Assembly: GCA_947477885.1 (NCBI GenBank)
Contig: CANJUD010000014.1
Span: 1-64,000, forward strand
Origin: Bacteroidota bacterium
Lineage (GTDB): Bacteria; Bacteroidota; Bacteroidia; UKL13-3
Direction of reading: 5' to 3'
DNA length: 64,000 bases
Part shown: positions 37,143 through 64,000 of the stretch, piece after piece
How the letters are laid out: each line of letters starts with the position of its first letter
Numbering within the stretch: position 1 is the stretch's first letter
The notes under the pieces: model-generated
Told to the model about the DNA's origin: nothing
Databases searched by the model: none
Seen by the model: only the letters and a program-made list of their open reading frames with translations
Position numbers and translations under genes: made by a program

Positions 37143-37244
37143 TGCAGCCAACCTTTTTGGCACACGTTTCGTAAGGGTGAATATGAAATATTTTTTTCAA
37201 CTGAAAATATTTTGGTTACTTGAAATTTTATGCTTTATTTTGAA

Positions 37245-40916: not shown

Positions 40917-40975
40917 GCACTTGTGGTGGTGAGCGGAGTCGAACCATCGCCAACTAAATTGTCCCATCTCTCTAT

Positions 40976-40983
40976 TACTTTTG
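40976..40983 (+). promoter_or_regulatory. Minus-7 element of the PorE-like gene
   Basis: TACTTTTG matches TAnnTTTG and ends 5 nt before the ATG at 40989, which helps choose that start. It lies about 60 bp after the stop of the preceding gene. A GAGCGGAGTCGAACC repeat word lies at 40931-40945. Confidence 0.6.
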
Positions 40984-40988
40984 CCCCT

Positions 40989-42884
40989 ATGATGAAACGC
41001 GTAGCAAAAATATTTTGTGCTTTACTATTTGTGTGGTCTTGCGGCACCGCACAAATCTTGCCTGAGAGCAGTACCCAAAACAAAAAAGCCCTCAAGAAGT
41101 TCAATGAGGCTATTGCAGCAATGGGAATAAAAAGCCCTGAAGAGATTCTCAAACTAGTTAATGAAGCTATTCAAAAAGATCCTAAATATATTGATGCCTT
41201 GATGTTTAAAGGCGATATATTGGAAGATATGAAGCAAATGGATTCAGCCATTGCCTCAGTTGAAAGGGTACTGATGATTAATCCTGATTTCCCCATGGCG
41301 TATTACCGCTTAGGGCAAATGCAAACAGCTGCGGGCAATTTTGAAAAAGCGAGAGCTGTGCTCGAGAAATTTCTCACCTATCCCAAAATTCTGGAACCAA
41401 GATATAATACTGCCAAGGCTTTATTGGCAAGGGCAAATTTTGGAATTACTGCAATGAAAAATCCCGTGCAATTTGAGCCCGAAAATCTGGGACCCAATAT
41501 TAATACTTCATATAAAGATTATTTCCCTAGCTTCACAGTGGATGGTAAGCAAATGATATTTGATAGAAACGTAAATGGTAATGAAGAGTTTTACATCAGC
41601 CAAGTAGATGGCAAAACATTTACCCCGGGCAAAATATTACCACCACCCATGAACAGTAATGAACGCCAAAGTTATCCCAGCTTTACCGCTGATGGTAAAT
41701 TCGTTTTCTTTGCGCGCTTTACCGATGGAGGAGGTAGCAATTGCGACATTTGGTTCTCTTTCCTAAATGGCACAGTATGGAGCACTCCCAAAAACTTGGG
41801 CACACCCATCAATACCATTGGTTGGGAGTCGCAGCCCTGCATAAGTGCTGATGGCCGCACCTTGTATTTTATAAGCAACCGAGGTGGCAGTTCCGATATA
41901 TATGTGAGCAAGTTTAATGGCAAATGGTCAACTCCGGTAAGCCTTGGGCCCAATATTAATTCGACAGGCGATGAGCAGGCTCCCTTCATTCACCCCGATG
42001 GCAAAACATTGTACTTCTCATCAAATGGCCGCATTGGCATAGGTGAGTATGATATATATATGAGCCGCTTAGGTAAAGATGGCAAATGGGTCGAGGCTGT
42101 TAATATGGGCTACCCCCTCAATTCATTAAAAGATGAACGCAGTATGATAGTGGCCGCCAATGGTATTGATGGTTATATAACAACCGACAACCTAAAAGGC
42201 TTTGGCGATTGGGATATATATAAATTCACCGTGGATCCGGCTTACCGCCCGCAGCAAGTTACTTATGTTAAAGGAACCATTGTTGATGATAAAACCAACA
42301 AACCTGTGGATGCACTTATCGAGGTTTTAGATTTAAGCACCAAAGAAAGCTATTATATATCCCACTCTAATGCTTTGAGCGGGCAGTTTTTTGCTTGCTT
42401 ACCCACAGGTTCCAATTGCATGTTCAAGGTGCAGGGTGAGGGGTATTTGTTTTATACGCAAAACTATTCCTTTCCCAATTCTAACTCCGTGCAAAAGCCC
42501 GAACAGCTTTCTATCCGTTTACAAAAGCTAGAGAAGGGGAGTATTCTAACTTTAAACAATGTATTTTTTGAAATCGATAAATTCGATTTAAAACCCGAAT
42601 CGTTTACTGAACTAGATTTGGTGGTAGAACTGCTGAAGCGTAACCCCAAACTAAAAGTAGAACTAGGCGGGCATACTGACTCTATAGGTAGCAAGCTGCT
42701 AAACAAAATCCTATCGACCAACAGGGCAAAAGCTGTTTACGATTACTTGGTAAGCAAAGCCATTCCCGCGACCCAACTCACCCACAAAGGCTATGGCGAT
42801 ACAGCACCCTTTACCACCAACAAAACCGAAGAAGGGCGTAAACTGAATAGGAGGACAGAGATGAAAGTAACGGGGGTGGAGTAG
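40989..42884 (+). CDS. porE: PorE-like T9SS component (TPR, propeller, CRD, OmpA_C)
   Basis: The 631-residue exported protein has the domain order of PorE. A signal sequence (MMKRVAKIFCALLFVWS) is followed by TPR repeats (about 25-150), a beta-propeller of PD40/WD40-like blades (about 165-425, such as FPSFTVDGKQMIFDRN and ISADGRTLYFISNRGGSSDI), and a carboxypeptidase-regulatory-like domain (about 435-520, YVKGTIVDDKTNKPVDALIE). An OmpA_C domain ends the protein (VFFEIDKFDLKPES, LGGHTDSIGS, KLNRRTEMKV). PorE links the secretion machine to peptidoglycan in Porphyromonas. The start at 40989 is chosen because a minus-7 element ends 5 nt upstream. Its position between two CHU_C cargo genes fits a role in T9SS export. 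Confidence 0.85.
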   Translation: MMKRVAKIFCALLFVWSCGTAQILPESSTQNKKALKKFNEAIAAMGIKSPEEILKLVNEAIQKDPKYIDALMFKGDILEDMKQMDSAIASVERVLMINPDFPMAYYRLGQMQTAAGNFEKARAVLEKFLTYPKILEPRYNTAKALLARANFGITAMKNPVQFEPENLGPNINTSYKDYFPSFTVDGKQMIFDRNVNGNEEFYISQVDGKTFTPGKILPPPMNSNERQSYPSFTADGKFVFFARFTDGGGSNCDIWFSFLNGTVWSTPKNLGTPINTIGWESQPCISADGRTLYFISNRGGSSDIYVSKFNGKWSTPVSLGPNINSTGDEQAPFIHPDGKTLYFSSNGRIGIGEYDIYMSRLGKDGKWVEAVNMGYPLNSLKDERSMIVAANGIDGYITTDNLKGFGDWDIYKFTVDPAYRPQQVTYVKGTIVDDKTNKPVDALIEVLDLSTKESYYISHSNALSGQFFACLPTGSNCMFKVQGEGYLFYTQNYSFPNSNSVQKPEQLSIRLQKLEKGSILTLNNVFFEIDKFDLKPESFTELDLVVELLKRNPKLKVELGGHTDSIGSKLLNKILSTNRAKAVYDYLVSKAIPATQLTHKGYGDTAPFTTNKTEEGRKLNRRTEMKVTGVE

Positions 42885-47141: not shown

Positions 47142-50100
47142 ATGAAGAAAATTTTACCCATCTTGCTCTTTGTCTTGTGCTTAACACAAAGTTGGGAAAC
47201 CAAGGCCACCCATATGATGGGAGCCGACATTGAGTACACTTGTAGAAATAAAGATACTTTCGATTTTATTGTGAAAGTATATAAAGACTGCAAGGGAGTT
47301 AGCCTCTCGCCCATCTCAATGTCTATTGAGGGCATAGGGTGCTCGTATACCTCTAGCTATACGATGACTCAGATTTCTTGTGTTGACATTACTCCTGTTT
47401 GTAAAAAATCTTGCTCAAAGTGCGACCGCCAAAATTGCAACGCTTATGGTTATCCCAATGGATCGGATGCTAGTTGCACATTTCCATATGGTATTGAAAA
47501 AATAGTATTTAAACAAACTGTAATTTTTAAAGGTACCAACTGTTGCAAGTTCCGCATTTCATATGAGCAGTGCTGCCGTAATGGAGCTATTACAACTTGC
47601 TGTGCTGGAGACAACTTCTATTCATATGCAGAGTTTAATCGCTGCCTTACCCCATGTAATAGCTCACCAACACTTACTAACGACCCTGTAGGAATGTACT
47701 GCGTTGGAAACTGTATCTGTTATAACAATGGTGCACGTGATACTGCCAACTACGATTCCATATCTTATCACATGGCTAAGGCCCTTAATGCATATAACTC
47801 TCCCTGCACTTACCAAGGTTCTTATACTTATCAATATCCACTATATTATGATGGATTCCCATCAATAAAAAAATACAATGACAAGACTTGCAAGGGCTTC
47901 GGTCTAGACTCTGTAACTGGTGATATGTGCTTCAAACCAATGCAGCAGCAGGTTGCTGTTATTGCAGTTGAGATAAAAGAATGGAGAAAGGATTCAAACG
48001 GAAAGATGGTCAATATCGGAGTTACTCGAAGAGACATGCAGCTAATTATTGTCGCTAACTGCACCAACAAGGCCCCTAGCTTACCTGCCGCCACGCAGAT
48101 TGGGTGTGCAGGCGATCTCATTTGCTTCAGCGGTATTAAATCAAGTGACCCTGATAAAAAAGACACGGTCCGGCTGAGTTGGAACTACGGTATACCTAAG
48201 GGAACTTTTACTGCCAAATATAATGGTAGCGGTAAGCAGGAGTTTGACTTCTGTTGGCAGACCGTTGACAAAGATGCAAGTAATACCCCCTATTTCTTTA
48301 CCGTGAAAGCTATTGATGATGCCTGCCCATTGAGCGGTCAGTTTTCGCGTAGTTATTCAGTACTTGTTAAGAAAAATCCAAAAGCTAGCCGTAAGTACAC
48401 CAACCTTTCATGTGGATTGGTTAGGATGACGGCTACTCCCCTAAACATCAACAAAGCCAAAGAGGTATTCACCTACCAATGGACAGTTCCTTTCCCTGGA
48501 GGTGTTAAATACAACAGACAGGATACTGTGCATCAGTTCCATAGCGGTGGCCAAAAGATAATTAGATGCGAAGTAATATTAAACGGGTGCGTAATGGCCT
48601 ATGACGATACTATTGATGTGCCACCATTTGTCTCTGTAGATATTGGCCCCGATACCACGCTATGTGCTGGTAAGTCCTTCGCGCTTTCAGCTAAAGTAAC
48701 AGATGGGTCAAAGCCCTTCAGGTACTTATGGTCTCCAGGAACTGCCAACGATACGTTAACTTCATTTACCAAAGATACTATTAATACAACCTATATAGCT
48801 TGTATGATTACCGACAGTTTCAACTGTGTATCCTATGACACAATGATGCTGAATATTATGCCACCACCACCCGTTGATCTTGGACCCGACAAGCGAGTTT
48901 GTAAAGGTGACAGCGTCACTTTCGATGCCGGAGACAATGCGGGTACAGGTAATGTGAAAGCCTATATATGGACAGACCTTGGTGCTAATACTACCGTGGG
49001 CACCAACAGATATATCACCGTGGGTGACTCGATTGACCTTATGGCTACAGTTTATGACTCGACAGGCTGTGTGGGGCGAGACACTGCAAAGGCACGTTTC
49101 AACAATATAACTTTTGATGCAGGACCTGATAAATACCAATGCTATGGCGATACGACCGATATTAAACCTGGAGGTGCTGACTCCATCGTGTGGACCGACC
49201 TTGCTACAGGTAATTTGATACAAATAGGCGACTCCCTCAGAATGTCATTTGCCGCAACTACCCAATTATTGCTGCATGCCTTTCTTACTTATGATAGCGT
49301 TACCTGCGAAAGCTGGGATACCATCCAAGTAGAATTGAAAAGCCCACCAAAATTGGATTTAGAAATACTGGAAGGGTGCGTGGACAAAGGATACAATACG
49401 AAACTCACTTTAATAAATGCTTATGATTCGGTTACCGGCGTAAGTATTAAGAATATCTGCTCTTGGCAGTGGACTGCTACTGATTCTTTATTGAAGGCTT
49501 GCATTGATACTGTAAAGAATGAGGTGGATATTAAGAAACTTGGGGCCACTTATAAATGGGGAACTAAGTGGACTGGCCCTTACTGCATTGTTACTTGTAT
49601 TACAAACTATGGTTGTAGAAAGATAGATTCTCTGAAAATTATTGTTGACCCTATACCTCCGATAAAGATTAAGCCTCTTAGAATCTGTGCGAATAAAGGC
49701 AAGGTGAAACTTGACAACTGGGCCTACCCCAACTCGGGCGGAAACCCTGTATCAACCTTGGGCCAAACATGGACTGGACAAGGTATATCGCAAGTAGGTA
49801 CTAGTTGGTTCTTCGACCCTGCTGCTGCAGGCGTAGGGCAGCATGTAATAAAATATGAATATGTAGATATTAACTCTTGCAAAGGTTCAGATACCCTTAC
49901 TTTCTTTGTGAAACCCATACCTGTTGTTACCTACTCACAACCTAGTCCGCTATGTTGCACTGATGGCATTCAGGATTTGTGGAAACTAACCAATGCCAGC
50001 CCATTAACAGGTACTTGGCATGGAACAGGGGTGCTGGACAGCGTGTTGGGTACCTTCGATCCTACAATTGTGCTTAGCCCTGCCAGTATAGGTGCGGCAC

Positions 50101-51503
50101 CAGTAAGCTCACAGCTTGTATTCTATGAAGACGGTAACGGTTGCCCTGTTTCCGATACCTTTAACATTATCATAAACCCTGTGCCTTTGGTGAAAATACA
50201 ACCTGACCGCGACATATGCTTTGATAGTGTGCCTTGGAACCTACCAATGTACGGCGACCCTGGAGTAACATGGATGATAGATACTATAGTAGCTCCTTAC
50301 AGCACTTTTAGCCCTGGAACTTGGGGACTTGGCCCACATAAGCTTACCTACCTATTTACCGACCCCACAACAGGTTGCAAGAACAAAGACTCTATGACCC
50401 TTAATGTGATTGAACCTCCAACGGTAAAAATAAAACCTGTGAAACCCTTATGTGCTGGTGAAAGCTTTACGGTAGGCTGCACCTTTAAGAATGCTGGTGG
50501 CGTATCATGGCTCAACTCAAGTGGTGGAACCTTTACCGCACCTAATGATACTACTACAGGTTATGTGCCTTCTGCTACTGATATTAGTAATGGATTCTTC
50601 TTATTAGAAGTGAGAACAACTGGCAACGGTGTTTGTAACCTAGCAGTGGATACCTATACCGTATTTATATACCCTGTGCCAGTACCTACACCTTTGGTGC
50701 ATCAGCAACGTTGCTCTCCTTTAGATGCTGTGTTTGCTGCCAGTTCGCAGGTACCTAACTGTACTTATACGTGGGACTTTGGAGACCCAATGAGCGGCAT
50801 CCTAAACACTGCAACTACTGCTGATGGTGACTCTGTTACACACTTATATATAAACAAGACAAACCAAGTAATTAAATTTACCGTTACGCTTACAGTTACA
50901 TCGCAACAAGGTTGCGATAGCACAGTAGTATGGCCAGATATTGCAGAGGTATATCCCAATCCTATTGCTGACTTCGAACCTAAACCTAGGAAGGCAACAA
51001 TTGCCCTACCCCGTGTTCGCTTTGCCAATATCAGTAGATTTGTAACCGATAGCACACACTGGGAGTGGAAGTTTGGTGACCCACTAAATGGCACCTCTAC
51101 CGACAAGAACCCGACTTACTGGTACTCTAATACTGACACAGGAACTTATATCGTGTTTATGAAAGCCACTACCGAGTATGGTTGTGTTGACTCAACCGAA
51201 CAGCCTGTGCACATAGGCCCCGAGATGTTGGTGTTTATACCCAACGCATTTACACCTGACGGATTTGGCCCTGGCAAGAACAACCGCTTCTGGGTTGAGG
51301 CTAGCAACTATAGCGAGTTTGAGATATACATATTTAACCGCTGGGGCGAGAACGTTTTCTACAGCAAAGAACGCCTGCCAGGTTGGGACGGAAACTTTAA
51401 AGACGACCCCTGCAAAGTGGATGTATATGTATACCAAGTGAACATTAGAAACTTTGAAGGCAAATGGTTCCACTATAATGGAACAGTGCATTTGATTAGA
51501 TAA
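47142..51503 (+). CDS. Very large CHU_C-domain T9SS surface protein with PKD-like repeats
   Basis: This is a 1,453-residue exported protein. After the signal peptide (about 1-22), ATHMMGADIEYTC and FIVKVYKDCKGVS match the CHU_C family opening also seen at 37245. The first 230 residues are unusually Cys-rich (for example CKKSCSKCDRQNC, RISYEQCCRNGAITTCCAGD), which suggests disulfide bonds. The middle holds many Ig/PKD-like repeats with D-I/L-G-P-D-x-x-L/V-C motifs and D-T/S turns. Near the end are PKD domains such as TYTWDFGDPMSG and HWEWKFGDPLNG. The C-terminus FIPNAFTPDGFGPGKNNRFW to NGTVHLIR is a type B T9SS sorting domain. A strong terminator follows. Confidence 0.93.
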   Translation: MKKILPILLFVLCLTQSWETKATHMMGADIEYTCRNKDTFDFIVKVYKDCKGVSLSPISMSIEGIGCSYTSSYTMTQISCVDITPVCKKSCSKCDRQNCNAYGYPNGSDASCTFPYGIEKIVFKQTVIFKGTNCCKFRISYEQCCRNGAITTCCAGDNFYSYAEFNRCLTPCNSSPTLTNDPVGMYCVGNCICYNNGARDTANYDSISYHMAKALNAYNSPCTYQGSYTYQYPLYYDGFPSIKKYNDKTCKGFGLDSVTGDMCFKPMQQQVAVIAVEIKEWRKDSNGKMVNIGVTRRDMQLIIVANCTNKAPSLPAATQIGCAGDLICFSGIKSSDPDKKDTVRLSWNYGIPKGTFTAKYNGSGKQEFDFCWQTVDKDASNTPYFFTVKAIDDACPLSGQFSRSYSVLVKKNPKASRKYTNLSCGLVRMTATPLNINKAKEVFTYQWTVPFPGGVKYNRQDTVHQFHSGGQKIIRCEVILNGCVMAYDDTIDVPPFVSVDIGPDTTLCAGKSFALSAKVTDGSKPFRYLWSPGTANDTLTSFTKDTINTTYIACMITDSFNCVSYDTMMLNIMPPPPVDLGPDKRVCKGDSVTFDAGDNAGTGNVKAYIWTDLGANTTVGTNRYITVGDSIDLMATVYDSTGCVGRDTAKARFNNITFDAGPDKYQCYGDTTDIKPGGADSIVWTDLATGNLIQIGDSLRMSFAATTQLLLHAFLTYDSVTCESWDTIQVELKSPPKLDLEILEGCVDKGYNTKLTLINAYDSVTGVSIKNICSWQWTATDSLLKACIDTVKNEVDIKKLGATYKWGTKWTGPYCIVTCITNYGCRKIDSLKIIVDPIPPIKIKPLRICANKGKVKLDNWAYPNSGGNPVSTLGQTWTGQGISQVGTSWFFDPAAAGVGQHVIKYEYVDINSCKGSDTLTFFVKPIPVVTYSQPSPLCCTDGIQDLWKLTNASPLTGTWHGTGVLDSVLGTFDPTIVLSPASIGAAPVSSQLVFYEDGNGCPVSDTFNIIINPVPLVKIQPDRDICFDSVPWNLPMYGDPGVTWMIDTIVAPYSTFSPGTWGLGPHKLTYLFTDPTTGCKNKDSMTLNVIEPPTVKIKPVKPLCAGESFTVGCTFKNAGGVSWLNSSGGTFTAPNDTTTGYVPSATDISNGFFLLEVRTTGNGVCNLAVDTYTVFIYPVPVPTPLVHQQRCSPLDAVFAASSQVPNCTYTWDFGDPMSGILNTATTADGDSVTHLYINKTNQVIKFTVTLTVTSQQGCDSTVVWPDIAEVYPNPIADFEPKPRKATIALPRVRFANISRFVTDSTHWEWKFGDPLNGTSTDKNPTYWYSNTDTGTYIVFMKATTEYGCVDSTEQPVHIGPEMLVFIPNAFTPDGFGPGKNNRFWVEASNYSEFEIYIFNRWGENVFYSKERLPGWDGNFKDDPCKVDVYVYQVNIRNFEGKWFHYNGTVHLIR

Positions 51504-51553: not shown

Positions 51554-52080
51554 ATGCCTCAGTTCCTCGCGGTGGTCAACTCTAATTCTTTTATCCTTTT
51601 TCTGCAATAATATTGATTTGAGTGAGTATTCACCCGGAATATATATATTGAAAAATAATTTAGGCGAGCATGTAAAATTACTCAAATGCAAATAAATTAT
51701 TTCTTGATATATTGAATATTAGTTTTTATTAAATCTAATATATTACAGCCATAAAGTTGCCCATTTATATAGATACTAATGTTTGAATTTTTCATTTTTA
51801 AAAGCTTTAAAAAATTGTAAAAAAATATACGTATAATTACAACAATATTTATCTTGCAAATAGTACAAAAAGATTCATTTTTTTTATAGTATAACTTCGA
51901 TTTATATATATTATTATTCTTTAACTATAATATAATAAATATTAAACTCCAGCCCGTCATGCTCGATTTTTTTCAGTATCTATGAACGCACTTTAGCGAC
52001 GCTAAAATAATCTCGATAGTTATAGGGGCAGCATGATGTAGGGCCGGCATAAGCAGCTCAATTACGATAGAATGTAATGT

Positions 52081-52240
52081 AGTAGGATTATATACAATAA
52101 AATAGCATTATATATGGTATATCAAGATTGTATATATTGTAGCAGGATTATATACATTATAATAGCATTATATATGTTACAGCAAGATTATATATATATT
52201 ACAGCAAGATTATATATATTATATTAGCACTAACTATATT
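52081..52240. repeat. 60-bp AT-rich repeat, about 2.5 copies
   Basis: AGTAGGATTATATACA begins at 52081 and AGCAGGATTATATACA at 52141, exactly 60 bp later. Each is followed by ATAGCATTATATATG and by an A(T/G)CAAGATT(A/G)TATATA word. A third partial copy starts near 52201. Related words are absent from other intergenic regions here. Confidence 0.85.
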
Positions 52241-52971: not shown

Positions 52972-55900
52972 ATGTTATCTAAATCAACTCAACAAAATCA
53001 GAGAGTTGGCTCGGTTTCACCGACGCCGAATCTCTTGCTGGGAAAGACATGGATGTCTTATCTCGGCGTGTTCATGCTGTTGCTACTCACCTTTGGTGGG
53101 GCCAAAGCCCAGCTATCGTCCAACTACAACTTCGCGAAAAGCAAAGGAACTTACACGCCTATTACCACCGGTGGCGGTGCTACGGCGTTTAAAACAAGTT
53201 CTTGGAACTATTACGATGTGTCGTCGGCAATTACCATCCCATCATTCAATTTTAATGGGAGTAGTTACACCAGTTTGCAGATTGCTGCTATGGGTTATGT
53301 TGTATTTGGCTCTACGGTGCCAAGTTACGATCCAGCCCCTCTTAGCAGTGGATCTTCTTACAGTGGCGTAATTGCAGCTTGTTCTTATTATGGAACACCT
53401 GCAAGTAGTGGGTCTCCCGCTATTATCTACCAACAAGTAGGAAGTGAGTTCATTATTCAGTGGACTGACGCTGCTTGTTATTACCAAGACGGACGTTTTG
53501 GATTCCAAATTAGATTGAACACCTGTAATGGTGTTGTCAAATTAATGTACGATTCGGTATTAACTCAACCTACTGGAAGTTATACTTCAAGACAAGTTGG
53601 TTTACGTGGTTCTTCAGGTTCAGATTATTTGAACCGTAGTTGTTCATCAGGAACTTGGTTTGCAAATGATGCAAATGGTTCTTCAAATTCAGCTTCATGT
53701 TATATGGGAGGTTCAGGAAACAGACCTGATAAAGGCTTAACCTATACCTATACCCCATCGAGTGGTTCTTCTATGACTGTGAATAATATTAATTATAGCA
53801 CAGCTTCAGTAAATTCTGTTTCTGCTGGTTCTACCGGTAATGAAATAATAAGAATGGATATAGATGTGCAAGGTGTAACTGGATCTCAGATTCTAGACAC
53901 TGTTGTTGTTACTTCTAACAATACAAGTGATGCAGATGTATCAGCAGTAAGACTCTATGTTTCTTCATCAAATGTATTTAGCACAAGTACAGCTACACAA
54001 ATAGGTTCAAGTACTACTTTCTCAAGTGGAAAAGCAACATTTAATACTTTAAATTATAGCTTGCCTTGTGCGGTTACTTATTTATATGTAGTATATAATG
54101 TAGCAGCCAGCCCAACAATGTATGATTATTTAGATGCTAAAATAAATGCAAATGATATTCATATCAGTGGTGTTACCTTCCCTAGCTCAAATAAATCTCC
54201 AGTAGGTAATAGACAGATTATTCCTCCAATGAGCTATTCATCTTCAACAGTTGCACAAGCAAGTTCAATTTTTGTATCTAAAGGTGCTACCACGCAAGCC
54301 ATCATTGGTGTACAGGTTGGCATGTCTGCTTCAGGTTCTCCTGTTAATATGGACTCTATTGTATTGAACACGACTGGAACCAATGGAACAAACAATGCTA
54401 CTACCAATATTTCCAATGCCAAAATGTGGTACACAGGAAATAGCAGCACTTTTGCTGCTACTACACAATATGGAAGTACTGTTACTGCCCCTAATGGTCA
54501 AATGAACTTCTTGGGCACACAGCCGCTTACCAACAATACCAACTATTTTTGGTTAACCTACGATATTAAATCAGGTGCAACTACAGGCGACTCTGTTGAT
54601 GCCCGTGCTCTTCGTATTAGAGTTGCAGGTACAACACAAACCCCTACGGTAACTAGCCCAGCAGGTTATCGCAGAATTTTGCCCGCTTATTGCACTCCTA
54701 ACCATTCTTATAACTATAGTGGTTATATAGGAATGGGTATTACAAACGTAACATTTAACAATTTAAATGTTACCTCTCCAGCAGCGGGTACTTCATCCCC
54801 CGGCTATTCTGCAAGCACTTCTGTAGCTACTATACAACGTAAATCTAATCCTACACTTAGTGTAGATTTAGGTTCATACAGTGGTAGCCCAATCGGGATT
54901 GTTGCATGGATTGACTTAAACCAAGATGGTGACTTTTATGATGCAGGCGAACAAATTGTATCAACTGCTTCAGGAAACGGTACTCCAAGTACCACCCATA
55001 CCTTTACTATTCCTATTCCTTGTTCAGCCAGTTTAGGTTATACGCAGATGCGTGTAATGGCAGCTTATTATTCTGCTAGTTATTGGGGTGATCCATGTAT
55101 TACTTATGGTTATGGTGAAACAGAAGATTACTTAGTAAATGTAACAGACAGCCCATTAGCATACGCTTCTAGCTTTACTACGCAAACCAATACTTTGGCG
55201 GTTAGCCCAGGTACATCTAATGTTCAAATCATTGCAATGCCAGTTATTACTGGAGGATGTAATGGAACATTAAATGCGACTAGCTTTACTGTTAATGCAA
55301 ATGGTTCAACCGCTATAGCTAGTGATGTAACAGGTGCCAAAATTTTCTGGACAGGTAATAGCAGTACATTTGCTACTACCACGCAGTTTGGTTCCACCTA
55401 CACAGGTAGTATGACTTCATCATACAATATTACTGGTACTAGAGCCCTTGTAGCTGATACAAACTGGTTCTGGCTTGCTTATAATCTTTCAGGGTCAGCC
55501 ACGCTGACTGATGTGATTGATGCTGAGTTTACCAGTGTTACCGTTGGTGGAAATGCATATACTCCTTCAAATACTGCCCCTTCAGGTAATAGAGTTATTG
55601 ATAACCCTATGACTTGGAATAGCACTTCAGGTTTCCAACCATCAACAGGTGCTGTTGGTAAAGGTACCCGCTACAATGCAGTATTGGGTGTACAAGTAAA
55701 TATGAGTTCTGGTTCATCAGTAAACTTGACCCAACTTAAGTGGTCAACTGCTGGTACAGCTACTTCTACTAGCACCTTTAATGCTGACGTTGACACTGCC
55801 CGTATTTATTATACAGGCAATAGTTCTACATTTGCTGCTACTACTTTATTTGGTACTTATGTAGTTCAATCGACTTTAGCTTATAATACTGCTATCACAA

Positions 55901-58900
55901 CTAATGCTACTCAAGCTTTGGTACCAGGTAATAACTATTTCTGGATTGCCTATAGTATTAAAACTGGTGCAAACACTGGTGATAGTATTGATGCTACAGT
56001 TAGCCAAGTTACCATTGCGGGTTCTCCATACACACCTAGTGTTACCAACCCAGCAGGCAAACGTAAAATTATACCTCAACCTTGTATAACCAATACCTCA
56101 TCGTATAACTATGGTAATGGCGGTATCACCAATGTAAGTATTGGTTCTATCAATAACAATACAGGTGTACCATCAGCAAATGCTACCTATAATGACTATA
56201 CTAGCCTTACCACTGATATACAAAAAGCGTCGCTGCAAACTGTATCAGTTTCTGCTCAGTGTTATTCATATATGTATGTATCAGTTTGGATTGATTTCAA
56301 CCAAGATGGAACTTTCCAATCTACGGAAAAAATCAACCAATTCACAGAACAACCTGCATCTAATACTTCACCTGTTACTAGTTTATTTAACTTCACCGTT
56401 CCTTGTAGTGCAACTTTAGGCCAATGCAGAATGCGTGTGCGTGAAGAGTATTACTACAGCACTGGTGCTACGCAAGATCCTTGTAACGATATGTATTATG
56501 GTTATTATGATGAAACAGAAGACTATACAGTGAATATTACTGATAGCCCAATTACTGTTGTAAGTGCTAACACTTTGCAAGATGTAACCCTAGCAGTAGG
56601 AACAGGTACAAACAATAACCAAATTATAAGAACACAAGTTGTAACCAAAGGTTGTTCAGGTACTCAAAGCCTAACAGCTATCAATTTCAATACTACGGGT
56701 AATACTGACCCTCAAGGCGATATAGATACAGCTTATGTGTATTATACTGGCAATAGCAATACTTTTGCTACCACCACTTTGTTTGGTAAAATCGCTGGAA
56801 GCAGTCTTTCAAGTAATAGCAACTTTACCATTAATGGTACTAAAGTTTTGGTTTCTGATACAAATAACTTCTGGCTTACCTTCAGAGTGCCTAGTGGTGC
56901 TACCTTGGGTGATTATTTGGATGCTCAGTGTAACAGTGTTGTTGTTAGCAGCACTACCTATAATACAACCATGTCTTCTCCAACTGGAAATAGACAGATC
57001 TTGAATCCAATGACCTATAGCAGCTCATACTTGACACAAACCACATTCAGCGGAATGACCAAAGGTTCTGTTAGCCAAAAAATTGCTGGTTTGGAAATCG
57101 TGATGAGTACAGGTACAAGTGTCAATCTAGATAGTTTGATATTTGCCAATTTAGGCACAGCCAATGTTTCTACCAATATTACCAATGTTCGTTGTTACTA
57201 CACCGGAAACAGCAGTGCATACGCTGCAACAACCCAATATGGTAGCACTCAAACAAGTTTCCATGGTTCAGGTGGTGAAATATGGTTTGGTCAAAGTTTG
57301 TCATTATTGCCAGGAACCAATTATTTCTGGTTAACCTATGATATCAAAACTGGTGCAACTACCAATGACTCAATTGATGCTACTATCAATCGTGTGGTTA
57401 TTGCAGCTACAAATTACACGCCTTCACCTGCTACTGTTGTAGGTAAACGTTTTGTAATTCCAGCTTATTGCACAGCCCAATCATATTATAACTATTATAA
57501 TTATGGTATTACCAATGTAACCTTAGGAGGAATAAACAATACAACTATAACTCCAACTACAGGTGCTCAATACAATGATTATACAGCACAATCAGCTACA
57601 CTTTACAAATACCAATCATATACTTTGTCAGTAGACTTTGCTGCACAATATAATTATGGCAATGTAGCTGCTTGGATTGACTTTAATGGCGATGGCGACT
57701 TTGCCGATGCTGGCGAAAAAATAGGCCAACCTGCTATTAATACAGCTCTAAGTTCAGGTACAGTAACAATTACTTTCACCGTTCCTTGTTCAGGTGTTAC
57801 AACAGGTCAAACTAGAATGCGTATTCGCGGAGAATATTATGCAAATAACGGCCAAGCATTAGATCCATGTAATTATGTCTATCCTTATGCTGGCGAAGTA
57901 GAAGACTATACTGTTGATATTAATAATAACCCTATTACTTATGCCAATAGTACTACCACCCAACAAAACACTGCTATTGTTCCACAAGGCTCGAACAGTG
58001 CTGAAGTAATTGGTATGTTGATTAATACTACTGGTTGTAGCGGTACATTAAATGTTACGCAACTTAACTTCAATACCACAGGTACTGCAGCCCCAACTAC
58101 TGATATTACCAATGCCAAAGTTTGGTTTACAGGTACTAGCAATACATTTGCTGCTATCACTCAGTTCGGTTCTGCTGTAGCTAGTCCAAATGGCAGCTTC
58201 AGCATATCAGGCACACAAGCACTTGTTGCTGATAGCAATCACTTCTGGTTGACCTATAATATACCGGGTGGTGCTACCAATGGTAATAAAATTGATGCCC
58301 AATGTACAGGTATTACTGTAGGTGCTTCTACTTTCTCACCTTCGGTTTCAAATCCTTCTGGCGACAGAACAATTGCAGCCCCAGCTACTTATAATACCCA
58401 TACTTGGAACAAGTATACAAATGCTTTAGGTACAGGTTCTACTAATAATAAAGTAGCCAAAGTTAAAATCACCATGAACTCAGGTGCAGGTGTTAATTTA
58501 GATTCATTAATCTTTAATACCACAGGCAACACAAGTTCATCAGATGTATCTAACGCTAGAGTTTGGTTTACAGGAAGCAGCAGCACATTTGCTACTACTA
58601 CCCAATATGGTGCAACCATAGCTTCACCTAATGGTACTTTAAACATATATGGTTCAGCAGCTATGCAACCAGGCGATAATTATTTCTGGTTCACTTATGA
58701 TATCCCAGGAGGTGCAACTATTGGCGATTCGGCTAATGCTAACCTTGTGAGATTATCTACTGGTGGTACATCATATAATGCAAGCCCTGCTTCTATTAGC
58801 GGCAAAAGCAAAATACGTGGTACTTATTGTACAACTTCCGATTATCAGTATCCTCAATATGGTATAACAGGTATTACCAATGTAACCCTAGGAGGTATCA

Positions 58901-61900
58901 ACAATACCACATCTGTACCTTCTTCTACTCCTACTTATTCTGATTATACTTCACAAACAGGATCTATTCAAAAAGCTAAGAGCTATTCAATGTCTGTTAG
59001 CTATGCAGCTAACTATTCTTACAACTACACTGCGGTATGGGTAGACTGGAATAACGATGGAGACTGGACAGATGCTGGCGAAAAGGTAGGTGAACTATCT
59101 GACGGAACCAGCAATACCAGTGGAACCTATACTTTCAACTTTAGTGTTCCTTGTAATGCTGCTATTGGTACTACACAAATGCGTGTCCGTAGTGAATATT
59201 ATGGATATGGTGGAAGCTTAGTTCCTTGTGCTTACAACTATTATTATGCTGGTGAGGTGGAAGACTATACGCTTGATATAGCTGATAGCCCACGTACCAT
59301 CACTTCTAGTTTAGCAGCAATGCCATCTTCATTAGATGTTCAACCAGGTTCTACAAATCAACAGATTTTGAAAATGCGTATCAATTCAGCCGGTTGTGGA
59401 AACAACTTAACTGTAACACAATTGAATTTCAATACTGCAGGTACTCCAGGTTCAACTAATGCCAGTTCAGATATTACCAATGCTAAAGTTTGGTTTACTG
59501 GAAATAGCCCTGTGTTTGCTACTACTACCCAATGGGGAAGTACATATTCAAGCCCAAGTGGAGCATTTAGTGTAACAGGTTCTACAACAATATCTACCGA
59601 CTCGGTGTGGTATTGGTTAACTTATGATATCGCTTCTGGTGCTACTGTTACTGATGTTGTGGATGCAAAAATTACCTCAATGGTAGTTAGCGGCAACACA
59701 GTTACACCAAGCAACAACGACCCTTCAGGTTCACGCGCTATTAATAACCCAGCTACTTTTGTTAGCTCTTCAATGATTATGCCTTATACTTCACCAGTAG
59801 GTAAAGGTACTACAACCCAACAAATCGTTAGGTTGAAAATCAGCATGGGTAGCACAGGTTCAGGCGTAACACTTGATGGAGTAGTATTAAATACTTCAGG
59901 TGTTACTTCTACTAGTGATATTAGCAATGCCAAGTTGTTCTACACAGGCGGAAGTACTGTGTTCTCTACAGCTTCTCAATATGGTTCAACAATAGCATCT
60001 CCAAGTGGTTCAATGGTATTTACAGGTACAGGCTTTACAGCTAATACCAACGATAACTATATGTTCTTAACTTACGATATCCCATCAGGTGCTACTACCA
60101 ACGATTCGGTTACTGCAAGATATGACTCATTGTATTTAGGTGGAACAGGTTATGTGCCATCTAATACAACAGTTTCTACCAAGCGTAAAATTAATCCAGC
60201 TTACTGTACAGCTGCCACCTATTCTTATAACCAGTATGCCCCAGTGGGTATTGTCAAGGTTCAATTGGGTAGCATCAATAACAGTTCTTCAGTTCCTGCC
60301 AATACCAGCACACATACTGACTATAGCAATACACAAAGTACCCAAATCCAAAAAACACTTACTTATACAATGAGTGTTGATTTGGATAATTCGTATTACT
60401 ATACCCAATACACTGCTGCTTGGATTGACTTTAACAATGACGGTACTTTCCAATCTGGTGAAAAACTAGGTGAGGGTACAGTTAATAACAATACCGGTAC
60501 TAATACATTTACCTTTACTGTTCCTTGTACTGCAGTTGCCGGTACTACACGTATGCGTCTTCGTTCTGAGTACTATGCTTACGGTGGAACTTTAGACCCA
60601 TGTAACACTAACTACTACTATGCAGGTGAAACAGAAGATTATGGTATCGACATTATGGACAGTCCTCGTAATATTACAAGCACTGCTGCTTTCCATCCTA
60701 CTACAGTAGATGTACAACCTGGTACTGCAAATGCACAAATATTAGCTATTCGTGTAAATGCTTCAGGTTGCGGAACTCAAACTTTGACCGCACTTAACTT
60801 TAATGCAACCGGTACAAGTGGTACAACCAGTTTGTCAGATATTAGCAATGTGAAAGCTTGGTATACAACTACCAATGTATTTGCTACTACTACTCAATAC
60901 GGAAGTACAATCTCTAGCCCAAGTTCAAGCACTTTGAGCTTTAGCGGTTCACAAGCGGTTGGAGATTCTTCATGGATATGGTTAACTTATACAGTAGCAA
61001 GCGGAGCAACCTTAGGTAATTCTTTGGATGCAGCCGTAACTTCTATCACAATTAGCAGTGTTACTTATAACCCAACCAATAGCAACCCAACAGGATCAAG
61101 GGTAATTAATACTCCTGCTACCTATGTAAGTTCATCAGTATCTATGCCTATCGTATCGGCAGTTACCAAAGGATTTACGAATAACTCAATAGTTCGTGTA
61201 CAATTAACTATGAGTGGAACAGGTTCAGCAGTTGCTATGGATAGCATGAAATTGAATACCAGTGGTACCAATAATGTTACTACCAATATTCAAAATGCGA
61301 AACTTTGGTTTACAGGTAGCAGTTCTGGATTTGCTACAACTACACAATATGGTTCTACCATTGCTTCACCAAACGGTGCTTTAAGATTTGGAAGTGCAAG
61401 TGTGTTCTTAAATCCAGGAGCTAACTACTTCTATTTAACTTATGATATCAAATCTGGTGCAAATACTGGCGACTCAGTAACAGCGAGGTTTGATTCAGTG
61501 GTTATAGCCGCTGCAGGTTATGCACCTTCTACAGGTACAGTTTCAACAAAACGTCGTATCAATGCTCCTTATTGTACACCTTCTGACTACTCTTATAACC
61601 AATATGGATATCCTGTTGGTATTTCGAAAGTAGTTTTGGCAGGTATCAATAATACTTCATCAGTAACTACAAGCACTACTACACATACTGATTATACCAA
61701 CTTACATGCCTCAGTTCAAAAATCACAAGCTTATACACTTACTGTAGATGCTGATAACAATGGGTACTATACCCAATATGCTGCAGCTTGGGTTGACTGG
61801 AACAATGATGGCACTTTCTCAAGTGGTGAAAAACTAGGTGAGGTTACAATCAATGCTAATTCAGCTACCTGTTCATATAATTTCACAGTTCCTTGTAGCG

Positions 61901-64000
61901 CGACAGCGGGTACTACCCGTTTACGTGTAAGGGCTGAGTATTATGCAAACGGTGGAAGTCTTGACCCTTGTAACTATAACTACTATTTTGCTGGTGAAAC
62001 TGAAGACTATTCAGTTGACATTATTGATAGTCCTCGTAATATCACTTCAGTTACAAGTGCACAACCTGTAACTGTTGATGTATCGCCAGGTGCTGTTAAT
62101 GCTCAAATGATGAGAATTCGTGTTAATTCTAATGGTTGTGGAACAGCTGCTTTAACTCAGTTGAATTTCAATACCACTGGAACAACAAGCCCTTCTGATA
62201 TTACCAATGCAAAAGTATGGTACACTGCCAACAGCGGTACATTTGCCACAACTACGCAATTTGGTTCTACAGTTACTGGCCCTAGTGGTGCGTTTAGCGT
62301 AACAGGTTCACAAACACTCAATACTGATTCTGCATGGTTCTGGCTTACCTACAACATAGCAAGTGGTGCCACCATTGGTAACACTCTTGATGCTCAAGGA
62401 ACACAAGCTACTATCAACTCTGCCACTTATGGTTCAGTTGCTGCAGTTAGTGGAAGCCGTACCATTAACAACCCTGCTACTTATGTAAGTTCAACTTCTA
62501 CACAAGCTAGTACAGCTAACATCGTTAAAGGAAACACTAAGAATGCTATTATCGGTGCTCAAATTGTGATGACAAGTGGGTCTGCACAAAATGCAACCAA
62601 TCTTGAATTCACTGTTGTAGGTTCTCAAAATATATCAACCAATATAACCAATGCTAAATGTTGGTATACAGGAACTAGTAGTGCATTTGCTACTACTACC
62701 CAGTATGGTTCAGTATATAATTCACCTACTTATAATGTATCGTTCAATGGCAACACCTCATTGTTACCAGGTACAAACTATTTCTGGATGACTTATGATG
62801 TTCCTACAACAGGTAATACTGGTGATTCAGTAGATGGTACTTTCGAACAATTTGATTTGGATTCGAATGGTACTACAATCACACAAACGCCTTCAGTTAC
62901 CTCTCCAGCAGGCAAACGCAAACTGGTTCAACCCTACTGTACACCTACCGACTATCAGTATAACCAATATGCTATAACAGGTATAACCAAGGTAGTATTG
63001 GGAACTATTAGCAACACAACAACTGTACCTACTGGTGCTGCAACACATAATGATTATACATCATTGTCTACCGATTTGCAAAAAGCAGCAAACTATACTT
63101 TAAGTGTAGATGTTTCTACCAACTACACTCCTCAATACACAGCAGCATGGATTGACTTCGATGGCGATGCCAACTTCACAGCTTCTGAAAAATTGGGACA
63201 AGTAGGTACTACCAGCAGTGCTACAGGTACTGTGTCGTTTAACTTTACTGTGCCTTGCGGTGCTAATCTAGGTGCATCACGCATGCGTATCAGGAATGAG
63301 TATTATGCTAATAATGGAGCAGCACTTGATCCATGCAGCTATCAATATTATTATGGTGGTGAAACAGAAGACTACAGTGTTAACTTTACCGATAGTGTAT
63401 TGTCAGTTGTTTCTGTAACAACAAATACTGAATCTACTTTAGATGTATTTGCTGGTGCTACCAACCAAAAGATGGTTTCTATCCCAGTTGTACTAAAAGG
63501 ATGTTCTGGTTCTAAAACACTTACTCAGTTAAACTTGAATACCAATGGTTCTAGCAGTGCCAGTAATGATATTGCTAATTGTAAGGTATGGTTTACTGGA
63601 AGTAGCAATGTATTTGCAACCAGCACACAATTTGGTTCTACAAGTTCTTCACCTGTAGGTGGCTTCAACATATCAGGTTCTGCTGCTTTAGCAGCAGACA
63701 CTAACTGGTTCTGGGTTACTTATGACATTGCAAGTGGTGCAACCACAAACAATGTTGTTGATGTTGAATGCAACCAAGTTACTGTAAGTAGTGCCAATTA
63801 CACACCTGCAACGCAAGCCCCATCGGGTAGCAGAATGGTGAACGTACCAATGTCATTTACCAGCTCAACCACTGTGCTTGCTTCAACAGGTGTTGTAGAA
63901 AAAGGCAAACGTTGGTATGAAGCTGTTGATGTGCAAGTAGTAATGTCTTCGGGTGCTACACTTAACCTAACACAGCTTAACCTAAGCACTGGTGGTTCTA
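52972..64000 (+). CDS. Giant repetitive surface protein with GEVED domains (runs off the window)
   Basis: From the ATG at 52972 the frame stays open to the last base, over 3,676 codons, with no stop. The N-terminus (MLSKSTQQNQRVGSVSPTPN, then a hydrophobic core ending GGAKAQ) is a long signal peptide of about 47 residues. A domain of about 215 residues follows. Then come about 7.5 copies of a block of roughly 455-460 residues made of two BNR_assoc_N-like domains (types A and B) and one GEVED domain. Motifs are NAKVWFTG, STFATTTQYGS, YFWLTYDI, YCTP and GE[TV]EDY. The 3' end is outside the window, where a T9SS sorting domain is expected. Adhesion or gliding is a reasonable guess, not shown. Confidence 0.9.
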   Translation, partial: MLSKSTQQNQRVGSVSPTPNLLLGKTWMSYLGVFMLLLLTFGGAKAQLSSNYNFAKSKGTYTPITTGGGATAFKTSSWNYYDVSSAITIPSFNFNGSSYTSLQIAAMGYVVFGSTVPSYDPAPLSSGSSYSGVIAACSYYGTPASSGSPAIIYQQVGSEFIIQWTDAACYYQDGRFGFQIRLNTCNGVVKLMYDSVLTQPTGSYTSRQVGLRGSSGSDYLNRSCSSGTWFANDANGSSNSASCYMGGSGNRPDKGLTYTYTPSSGSSMTVNNINYSTASVNSVSAGSTGNEIIRMDIDVQGVTGSQILDTVVVTSNNTSDADVSAVRLYVSSSNVFSTSTATQIGSSTTFSSGKATFNTLNYSLPCAVTYLYVVYNVAASPTMYDYLDAKINANDIHISGVTFPSSNKSPVGNRQIIPPMSYSSSTVAQASSIFVSKGATTQAIIGVQVGMSASGSPVNMDSIVLNTTGTNGTNNATTNISNAKMWYTGNSSTFAATTQYGSTVTAPNGQMNFLGTQPLTNNTNYFWLTYDIKSGATTGDSVDARALRIRVAGTTQTPTVTSPAGYRRILPAYCTPNHSYNYSGYIGMGITNVTFNNLNVTSPAAGTSSPGYSASTSVATIQRKSNPTLSVDLGSYSGSPIGIVAWIDLNQDGDFYDAGEQIVSTASGNGTPSTTHTFTIPIPCSASLGYTQMRVMAAYYSASYWGDPCITYGYGETEDYLVNVTDSPLAYASSFTTQTNTLAVSPGTSNVQIIAMPVITGGCNGTLNATSFTVNANGSTAIASDVTGAKIFWTGNSSTFATTTQFGSTYTGSMTSSYNITGTRALVADTNWFWLAYNLSGSATLTDVIDAEFTSVTVGGNAYTPSNTAPSGNRVIDNPMTWNSTSGFQPSTGAVGKGTRYNAVLGVQVNMSSGSSVNLTQLKWSTAGTATSTSTFNADVDTARIYYTGNSSTFAATTLFGTYVVQSTLAYNTAITTNATQALVPGNNYFWIAYSIKTGANTGDSIDATVSQVTIAGSPYTPSVTNPAGKRKIIPQPCITNTSSYNYGNGGITNVSIGSINNNTGVPSANATYNDYTSLTTDIQKASLQTVSVSAQCYSYMYVSVWIDFNQDGTFQSTEKINQFTEQPASNTSPVTSLFNFTVPCSATLGQCRMRVREEYYYSTGATQDPCNDMYYGYYDETEDYTVNITDSPITVVSANTLQDVTLAVGTGTNNNQIIRTQVVTKGCSGTQSLTAINFNTTGNTDPQGDIDTAYVYYTGNSNTFATTTLFGKIAGSSLSSNSNFTINGTKVLVSDTNNFWLTFRVPSGATLGDYLDAQCNSVVVSSTTYNTTMSSPTGNRQILNPMTYSSSYLTQTTFSGMTKGSVSQKIAGLEIVMSTGTSVNLDSLIFANLGTANVSTNITNVRCYYTGNSSAYAATTQYGSTQTSFHGSGGEIWFGQSLSLLPGTNYFWLTYDIKTGATTNDSIDATINRVVIAATNYTPSPATVVGKRFVIPAYCTAQSYYNYYNYGITNVTLGGINNTTITPTTGAQYNDYTAQSATLYKYQSYTLSVDFAAQYNYGNVAAWIDFNGDGDFADAGEKIGQPAINTALSSGTVTITFTVPCSGVTTGQTRMRIRGEYYANNGQALDPCNYVYPYAGEVEDYTVDINNNPITYANSTTTQQNTAIVPQGSNSAEVIGMLINTTGCSGTLNVTQLNFNTTGTAAPTTDITNAKVWFTGTSNTFAAITQFGSAVASPNGSFSISGTQALVADSNHFWLTYNIPGGATNGNKIDAQCTGITVGASTFSPSVSNPSGDRTIAAPATYNTHTWNKYTNALGTGSTNNKVAKVKITMNSGAGVNLDSLIFNTTGNTSSSDVSNARVWFTGSSSTFATTTQYGATIASPNGTLNIYGSAAMQPGDNYFWFTYDIPGGATIGDSANANLVRLSTGGTSYNASPASISGKSKIRGTYCTTSDYQYPQYGITGITNVTLGGINNTTSVPSSTPTYSDYTSQTGSIQKAKSYSMSVSYAANYSYNYTAVWVDWNNDGDWTDAGEKVGELSDGTSNTSGTYTFNFSVPCNAAIGTTQMRVRSEYYGYGGSLVPCAYNYYYAGEVEDYTLDIADSPRTITSSLAAMPSSLDVQPGSTNQQILKMRINSAGCGNNLTVTQLNFNTAGTPGSTNASSDITNAKVWFTGNSPVFATTTQWGSTYSSPSGAFSVTGSTTISTDSVWYWLTYDIASGATVTDVVDAKITSMVVSGNTVTPSNNDPSGSRAINNPATFVSSSMIMPYTSPVGKGTTTQQIVRLKISMGSTGSGVTLDGVVLNTSGVTSTSDISNAKLFYTGGSTVFSTASQYGSTIASPSGSMVFTGTGFTANTNDNYMFLTYDIPSGATTNDSVTARYDSLYLGGTGYVPSNTTVSTKRKINPAYCTAATYSYNQYAPVGIVKVQLGSINNSSSVPANTSTHTDYSNTQSTQIQKTLTYTMSVDLDNSYYYTQYTAAWIDFNNDGTFQSGEKLGEGTVNNNTGTNTFTFTVPCTAVAGTTRMRLRSEYYAYGGTLDPCNTNYYYAGETEDYGIDIMDSPRNITSTAAFHPTTVDVQPGTANAQILAIRVNASGCGTQTLTALNFNATGTSGTTSLSDISNVKAWYTTTNVFATTTQYGSTISSPSSSTLSFSGSQAVGDSSWIWLTYTVASGATLGNSLDAAVTSITISSVTYNPTNSNPTGSRVINTPATYVSSSVSMPIVSAVTKGFTNNSIVRVQLTMSGTGSAVAMDSMKLNTSGTNNVTTNIQNAKLWFTGSSSGFATTTQYGSTIASPNGALRFGSASVFLNPGANYFYLTYDIKSGANTGDSVTARFDSVVIAAAGYAPSTGTVSTKRRINAPYCTPSDYSYNQYGYPVGISKVVLAGINNTSSVTTSTTTHTDYTNLHASVQKSQAYTLTVDADNNGYYTQYAAAWVDWNNDGTFSSGEKLGEVTINANSATCSYNFTVPCSATAGTTRLRVRAEYYANGGSLDPCNYNYYFAGETEDYSVDIIDSPRNITSVTSAQPVTVDVSPGAVNAQMMRIRVNSNGCGTAALTQLNFNTTGTTSPSDITNAKVWYTANSGTFATTTQFGSTVTGPSGAFSVTGSQTLNTDSAWFWLTYNIASGATIGNTLDAQGTQATINSATYGSVAAVSGSRTINNPATYVSSTSTQASTANIVKGNTKNAIIGAQIVMTSGSAQNATNLEFTVVGSQNISTNITNAKCWYTGTSSAFATTTQYGSVYNSPTYNVSFNGNTSLLPGTNYFWMTYDVPTTGNTGDSVDGTFEQFDLDSNGTTITQTPSVTSPAGKRKLVQPYCTPTDYQYNQYAITGITKVVLGTISNTTTVPTGAATHNDYTSLSTDLQKAANYTLSVDVSTNYTPQYTAAWIDFDGDANFTASEKLGQVGTTSSATGTVSFNFTVPCGANLGASRMRIRNEYYANNGAALDPCSYQYYYGGETEDYSVNFTDSVLSVVSVTTNTESTLDVFAGATNQKMVSIPVVLKGCSGSKTLTQLNLNTNGSSSASNDIANCKVWFTGSSNVFATSTQFGSTSSSPVGGFNISGSAALAADTNWFWVTYDIASGATTNNVVDVECNQVTVSSANYTPATQAPSGSRMVNVPMSFTSSTTVLASTGVVEKGKRWYEAVDVQVVMSSGATLNLTQLNLSTGGS
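53758..64000 (+). repeat. A-B-GEVED repeat units in the giant gene, period about 1.37 kb
   Basis: GEVED motifs (GExEDY) recur near 55110, 56513, 57894, 59256, 60624, 61993 and 63360, and the Cys-containing YCTP or PCIT segment recurs near 54685, 56073, 57462, 58818, 60198, 61564 and 62930. The spacing is 1.36-1.40 kb throughout. Each unit has two domains of about 145-155 residues. Type A has a G-C-x-G/N-x-L segment after the V/P-G-x-x-N motif; type B lacks it. An eighth unit begins near 63395 and is cut by the window end. The units are clearly related but diverged at the DNA level. Confidence 0.88.

Follow-up and report, generated by a model that had tools for sequence, protein, structure and literature searches.

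Fibrillar adhesins and GEVED stalks are already known (PMC8286594, PMC10952558), and so are CBM93 modules. The first, a survey, sets out a class of fibrillar adhesin-like proteins with Por_Secre_tail as an anchor domain, and the second counts GEVED (PF20009) among the stalk domains of such adhesins. CBM93, which is the Pfam family BNR_assoc_N (PF14873), is the N-terminal module of Bacteroidetes sialidases and binds sialoglycans in NanH (PMC9472817). The CBM93 of PG0352 binds carbohydrate or glycoproteins weakly, and Trp, His, Lys, Arg and Ser have been proposed as the sugar-binding residues of the sialidase module (PMC10553830). Hardly any description exists of large surface fibres from freshwater Bacteroidota that are uncultured. 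Among the genomes that enter the present comparison, UKL13-3 carries gliding genes and was obtained from co-culture with the cyanobacterium Aphanizomenon flos-aquae (PMC5248499).

Here, we describe a giant gene of a freshwater Bacteroidota bacterium, located in a stretch of 64,000 nucleotides (the window), which forms the beginning of contig C14 in a genome of 3.12 Mb and 25 contigs. Its protein resembles the fibrillar adhesin-like proteins (PMC8286594; CshA-type, PMC10952558) in its very long chain, tandem stalk domains, GEVED domains and Por_Secre_tail. It differs from them in that Pfam reveals neither CshA_NR2 nor any other catalogued adhesive domain: across the whole frame the matches are PF14873, PF20009 and one sub-threshold match, and the domain that precedes GEVED is a BNR_assoc_N-type domain, which we call B, rather than CshA_NR2. 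A fixed super-repeat of the order A-B-GEVED with a pair of cysteines at the unit boundary is not described for these adhesins in the consulted passages of the two papers. With the CBM93 module of BNR-repeat sialidases (NanH, PG0352 and Sialidase26), the A and B domains share their fold and Pfam family. Unlike the sialidases, however, the giant protein carries sixteen copies of the module in a stalk and no sialidase domain, and its A and B domains, which the profile alignment shows to be shorter in their middle part, do not conserve the putative sugar-binding histidine. The class is known, that of T9SS-exported fibrillar adhesin-like proteins, and the design is new; this is not a new class. The protein yields a rule for the joining of units that is both precise and testable, and it shows a sugar-binding fold recruited into a stalk.

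The frame that opens with ATG at 52972 is free of stop codons to the end of the window and from there to the end of the contig at 65,678, a run of 4,236 codons. The earlier note had read the frame as uninterrupted up to the window's final base and the gene as real and unfinished. Both readings hold, and the frame lacks a stop in C14 solely because the contig edge cuts the gene. Judged from an orthologue in the same genus (~4,736 aa), the full-length gene probably spans about 4,747 codons. Its coding frame is under strong constraint, with dN ~0.08 and dS ~0.7 against a congener (G001), dN ~0.16 and dS ~1.4 against a second congener (G002), and a dN/dS of ~0.11-0.12. Segmentation of the protein at its own motifs defined the A, B and GEVED domains as follows.

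52972..64000, + strand: giant gene, in-window part; continues to C14:65678
52972..53109, + strand: probable signal peptide, a long n-region and then LGVFMLLLLTFGGAKA^QLSS, read from the sequence
53110..53721, + strand: N-terminal domain, unmatched in Pfam and NCBIfam, that the paralogue conserves
53722..55143, + strand: unit 1 (A1 53722-54222, B1 54223-54678, GEVED1 54679-55143); A1 lacks the boundary cysteine
55144..56538, + strand: unit 2 (A2 55144-55602, B2 55603-56070, GEVED2 56071-56538)
56539..57921, + strand: unit 3 (A3 56539-57003, B3 57004-57456, GEVED3 57457-57921)
57922..59280, + strand: unit 4 (A4 57922-58377, B4 58378-58815, GEVED4 58816-59280)
59281..60654, + strand: unit 5 (A5 59281-59745, B5 59746-60192, GEVED5 60193-60654)
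60655..62022, + strand: unit 6 (A6 60655-61110, B6 61111-61560, GEVED6 61561-62022)
62023..63387, + strand: unit 7 (A7 62023-62469, B7 62470-62925, GEVED7 62926-63387); folded as one model
63388..64000, + strand: unit 8, in-window part (A8 63388-63843, B8 63844-64000)
Beyond the window, + strand: remainder of unit 8 (B8 ends at C14:64284; GEVED8 C14:64285-64743); GEVED8 lacks the boundary cysteine

The glutamine after the putative cleavage site fits the Q-rule for signal peptides of Bacteroidetes (PMC5837995). The N-terminal domain that follows (~200 aa) has no family match in Pfam or NCBIfam. The array behind it keeps a strict order throughout, with eight domains of each type, A, B and GEVED (24 in all). 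Units 2-8 measure 452-465 aa (mean 457 aa, s.d. 4), GEVED motifs recur every 452-465 aa, and the GEVED domains themselves are 153-156 aa long. The same order repeated at least seven times at nearly constant length had been noted from the sequence; the count is now corrected to eight units, and the strict order and near-constant length across many genomes rule out a simple domain array or chance. The Pfam searches that the earlier note had proposed place both families far above their cut-offs. In the window, BNR_assoc_N (PF14873) matches 15 stretches with 386 bits in total (E 1e-116), and GEVED (PF20009) matches 7 stretches with 367 bits (E 5e-112), all over the cut-off; an eighth GEVED, likewise over the cut-off, lies past the window at C14:64495-64737. 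NCBIfam matches to 'ThermolysLepto' and 'TIGR00049' were far under their cut-offs and are read as spill-over from the repeat domains or as chance.

Mean identity is 41% among A domains, 44% among B domains and 35% between A and B, and all B domains fall in a single clade with support of 99/94. The possibility, raised earlier as one that would undo the super-repeat, that the A and B parts are unrelated between units thus fails, since identity within each type exceeds that between types. A and B are related yet distinct beta-sandwich domains of the CBM93/BNR_assoc_N type. Structure prediction for one unit, also proposed at the outset, gave an all-beta model of unit 7 with a mean pLDDT of 91.6 and a pTM of 0.77, and a model of the GEVED6-A7 boundary reached a pLDDT of 89.2 and a pTM of 0.77. 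The A and B folds match the N-terminal carbohydrate-binding module of Bacteroidetes sialidases (NanH, Sialidase26 and BTSA) at Z ~15, with an rmsd of 2.2-2.5 A over ~140 residues, and sequence profiles of A and B recover the same sialidases as the structure comparison. No conserved histidine column is present in A or B, and no obvious full counterpart to the set of sugar-binding residues of the sialidase module was found. For GEVED, the fold match is to residues 720-906 of endo-beta-N-acetylglucosaminidase HS (Z 16.7), and there is a weak structural likeness to the biofilm scaffold RbmA (Z ~8.3). In a viral fold library, the best match was a GEVED-domain protein of a virus, which is a family-level match only.

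The array is old. Each unit of the giant gene is nearest to the unit at the same position in G001 (81-92%) and next to that in G002 (65-84%), and the one-to-one pairing implies that the eight units predate the split of these species. Within the giant gene, units share only 34-58% protein identity, and DNA self-matches of more than 150 bases are just ~65-69% identical. Recent expansion of units in the giant gene is excluded by the position-for-position orthology and the low DNA self-identity. A 7-unit paralogue with the same layout, encoded on contig C13 of the window genome, pairs with the giant gene by position, ends included, and has one unit fewer in the middle. A genome of another genus (G005) has a 12-unit and an 8-unit gene, in which the first two and the last two units still have their counterparts in the window genus; copies particular to the G005 lineage (u5/u10 65%, u4/u8/u9 56-57% identical) occur in the middle of the 12-unit gene. 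Together with the UKL13-3 gene, in which two of four units (u1/u2) are 79% identical, these copies indicate expansion by whole units, mostly in the middle of the array. The array ends have stayed fixed, and it is the middle that has gained whole units in the other genus. The expansion by recombination suggested in the earlier note is accordingly upheld for the family, where whole A-B-GEVED units have been duplicated (G005 and UKL13-3), but not for the giant gene itself, whose array is frozen: unit k pairs across congeners and units are at most 58% identical. Units 3-5 of the paralogue (L022) carry a GEVED subtype other than that of the giant gene, so that GEVED can be swapped without A-B. Units 3, 4 and 7 of a G005 gene (L037) likewise have a different GEVED subtype with A and B unchanged, a pattern of swapping between genes.

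With each GTDB species represented by one genome, a scan that retained 76 loci found the A-B-GEVED order in 13 named Bacteroidota genomes, mostly metagenome-assembled, with at least two consecutive units in 11 of the 13. The earlier note could name no described protein with this three-part order; uniqueness of the order is not supported, although our literature search found no description of it. PF14873 matches occur in 51 of the 64 genomes of the window's own family, and more than 20 are reached only in the window genus and G005. Genes with four units are found outside these two groups, including on the complete chromosome of UKL13-3 (CP012155.1, L069). There, a frame of 2,869 codons shares the A-B-GEVED order and a T9SS-type C-terminus with the giant gene; it differs in having four units instead of eight, a parallel beta-helix-like region in front and a more recent duplication. 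M4 peptidase-like proteins of the window genome (L024) and of a congener (L042) likewise alternate A-type and GEVED domains and end in a T9SS-type C-terminus, but they have no B, include a peptidase-like part and lack the boundary cysteines inside the array. The genes concerned lie at L024:3672-11174 (-), L042:123-7616 (-) and L042:7866-13784 (-). In these proteins, the first A retains its cysteine when the peptidase end also provides a cysteine, and later A domains are without it.

GEVED domains have two nearly invariant cysteines, at model columns 5 and 138 (94% and 97%), and about half of them have a third at column 112/113. The A domain has one cysteine, at 39, and B as a rule has none at that place. 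The third GEVED cysteine and that of the following domain go together: across 104 boundaries from GEVED to an A/B-type domain, both were present in 84, neither in 20, and mixed states were absent, under a relaxed rule, applied to all rows, that accepts a cysteine shifted by a few residues. A strict column count leaves five apparent exceptions, each with a cysteine displaced by a few residues; it gives a Fisher p of 4e-17, which is naive, since the rows are related by descent. Both cysteines are invariant in 62 boundary sequences. Where no A/B-type domain follows, the GEVED cysteine is absent in 54 cases and present in 2 (one at a contig cut). The boundary cysteine is missing from the first A and the last GEVED of the giant gene, of its paralogue, of the gene in two congeners and of both G005 genes. 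Of the A domains preceded by something other than GEVED, ten keep their cysteine, and all ten have an upstream cysteine, at a distance of 30 residues where a beta-helix-like end precedes or 16 where an M4 peptidase-like end does. On the tree, each cysteine trait changed about five times, in step with the other, and in the same direction in 3/3 well-supported independent pairs; the sign test on these gives p 0.25, three pairs being too few to reach significance. The alternative pairing of GEVED Cys34 with A Cys128 showed no co-variation.

Because the third GEVED cysteine is present exactly when the next domain has its match, we predict a disulfide from unit to unit, exemplified by the following residues.

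61894..61896, + strand: GEVED6 cysteine 112 (VPC motif), predicted staple
62137..62139, + strand: A7 cysteine 39 (GC motif), predicted partner

From sequence co-occurrence, a disulfide between GEVED(n) and A(n+1) is likely rather than proven. We lean to the same degree towards reading it as a new stalk principle, in which the cysteines of dedicated inter-unit disulfides are gained or lost as a pair, are dispensed with at either end of the array and have an upstream half that a beta-helix or a peptidase can supply instead. If true, covalent links would lock the whole T9SS rod into a single chain that resists pulling. A literature search for inter-domain disulfides in adhesin stalks and for a boundary cysteine rule found neither.

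The 3' end of the gene was sought by searching the window genome with the remaining 512 residues of the G001 orthologue, which lies in two pieces, on contigs C75 and C93 of that genome, the second of which reaches a stop codon and Por_Secre_tail. In the window genome, the last 24 codons, identical to those of the congener, lie at the extreme ends of contigs C8 and C21. These ends have 149 bases in common, including the stop (TAA on C8) and a terminator-like hairpin. Downstream of the congener's gene, 3.9 kb of DNA align with C8 at 80% identity, and no match to C21 extends past the shared tail; the DNA immediately upstream of that gene matches the window at 86%. Since the flanks of the congener's gene match the window and C8, C14 appears to run on into C8 over ~1.46 kb. 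The earlier note had proposed extending the contig to a stop codon and a C-terminal sorting domain; by synteny the stop is on C8, and the sorting domain is found in the orthologue, with just the last 24 codons present in the assembly of the window genome. In the orthologue (L058), the C-terminus scores 44.6 bits against TIGR04183 of NCBIfam (cut-off 23), the family of T9SS type A cargo, and 44.1 bits against the surface-anchor family PF18962 of Pfam (cut-off 27). The window genome encodes the translocon SprA, which matches its model over the full length with 2,461 bits, and has at least 150 matches to Por_Secre_tail.

C14 and C13 also terminate in a common 149 bases, and their last 830 bases are 82% alike. 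The equal overlaps look like the assembler's overlap length, with a collapsed stretch, absent from the genome set, that is common to both paralogues in between. In G005, the pair of giant genes likewise shares 149 bases, with 82% identity over 866, and in either genus the 3' ends of the paralogues seem to have stayed alike. The shared ends of paired giant paralogues, at which the assembly broke near their 3' parts in two genera, suggest repeated homogenisation of the C-terminal part, which comprises a beta-helix-like region and the sorting domain. The identical contig ends are those of C14/C13 (L021, L022) and C8/C21 (L054, L055) in the window genome and of L036/L037 in G005.

We consider it quite probable that the product is a secreted, T9SS-exported, rod-like and fibrillar adhesin-like surface protein of ~4,747 residues, and the fibre-like surface structure proposed in the earlier note is supported as its most likely role, with the rod shape predicted from the 24 tandem domains. 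The putative signal peptide would direct the chain to the periplasm, and the Por_Secre_tail seen in the orthologue would then route it through the T9SS. Together, the 24 beta-sandwich domains of the eight units would make up a long stalk, roughly 100 nm in length at ~4-5 nm per domain. The near-invariant cysteine pair of each GEVED would close an internal disulfide, and the third cysteine would bond to the A domain of the next unit, giving a covalently stapled and stiffened rod. If the C-terminus attaches the protein, the N-terminal domain would sit at the far tip. In fresh water, the protein would probably serve to attach the cell to particles, to colonies of cyanobacteria or to other cells.

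Both A and B, which descend from the CBM93 fold, may bind glycans many times over or be mainly structural now. Under a reading centred on the first of these, the 16 A and B domains would be working CBM93-type modules with GEVED as spacers, and the main job would be gripping polysaccharide and not extending a tip. The shared fold and family and the binding of sialoglycans or glycoproteins by CBM93 in NanH and PG0352 (PMC9472817, PMC10553830) speak for it, but neither A nor B has a conserved histidine, conserved basic residues are few, and the composition, low in charge and with 15% T and 12% S, is more like that of a structural repeat. We regard such capture as unlikely to be the main function. 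Doubtful to a greater degree is a protein that is exported by the T9SS, freed and laid into a biofilm or sheath as matrix. T9SS cargo may be released or attached (PMC10202324), and GEVED does recall RbmA; a Z near 8, however, is in the range of common Ig-like arrangements, and the sequence bears no mark of release. We infer surface attachment rather than release.

That the units were stacked by misassembly is scarcely credible. C14 and C13 do break in a common stretch, which marks the locus as hard to assemble, but an identical eight-unit order occurs in two independent congeneric genomes, units at most 58% identical leave reads that cannot be confused, and four units are present in the complete PacBio chromosome of UKL13-3.

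Several minor features were recorded in the window and elsewhere in its genome. In the window, a tRNA was the sole RNA family match in Rfam. The 1.47 kb gap upstream of the giant gene holds an AT-rich imperfect tandem repeat at 52078-52229, with periods of 20 and 60 bases. The upstream neighbours at 37230-42884 and 47142-51503 are PKD proteins of T9SS type B (CHU_C), one of which adjoins a TPR-PD40-OmpA protein. At G000:C3:172922-173137 (-) of the window genome, a Por_Secre_tail match contains a TAA in frame and may represent a decayed gene. Another giant frame, of 6,426 aa and with two GEVED domains, lies within G000:C9:62001-82000 (L025), and its C-terminus is 34% identical to the sorting region of the congener.
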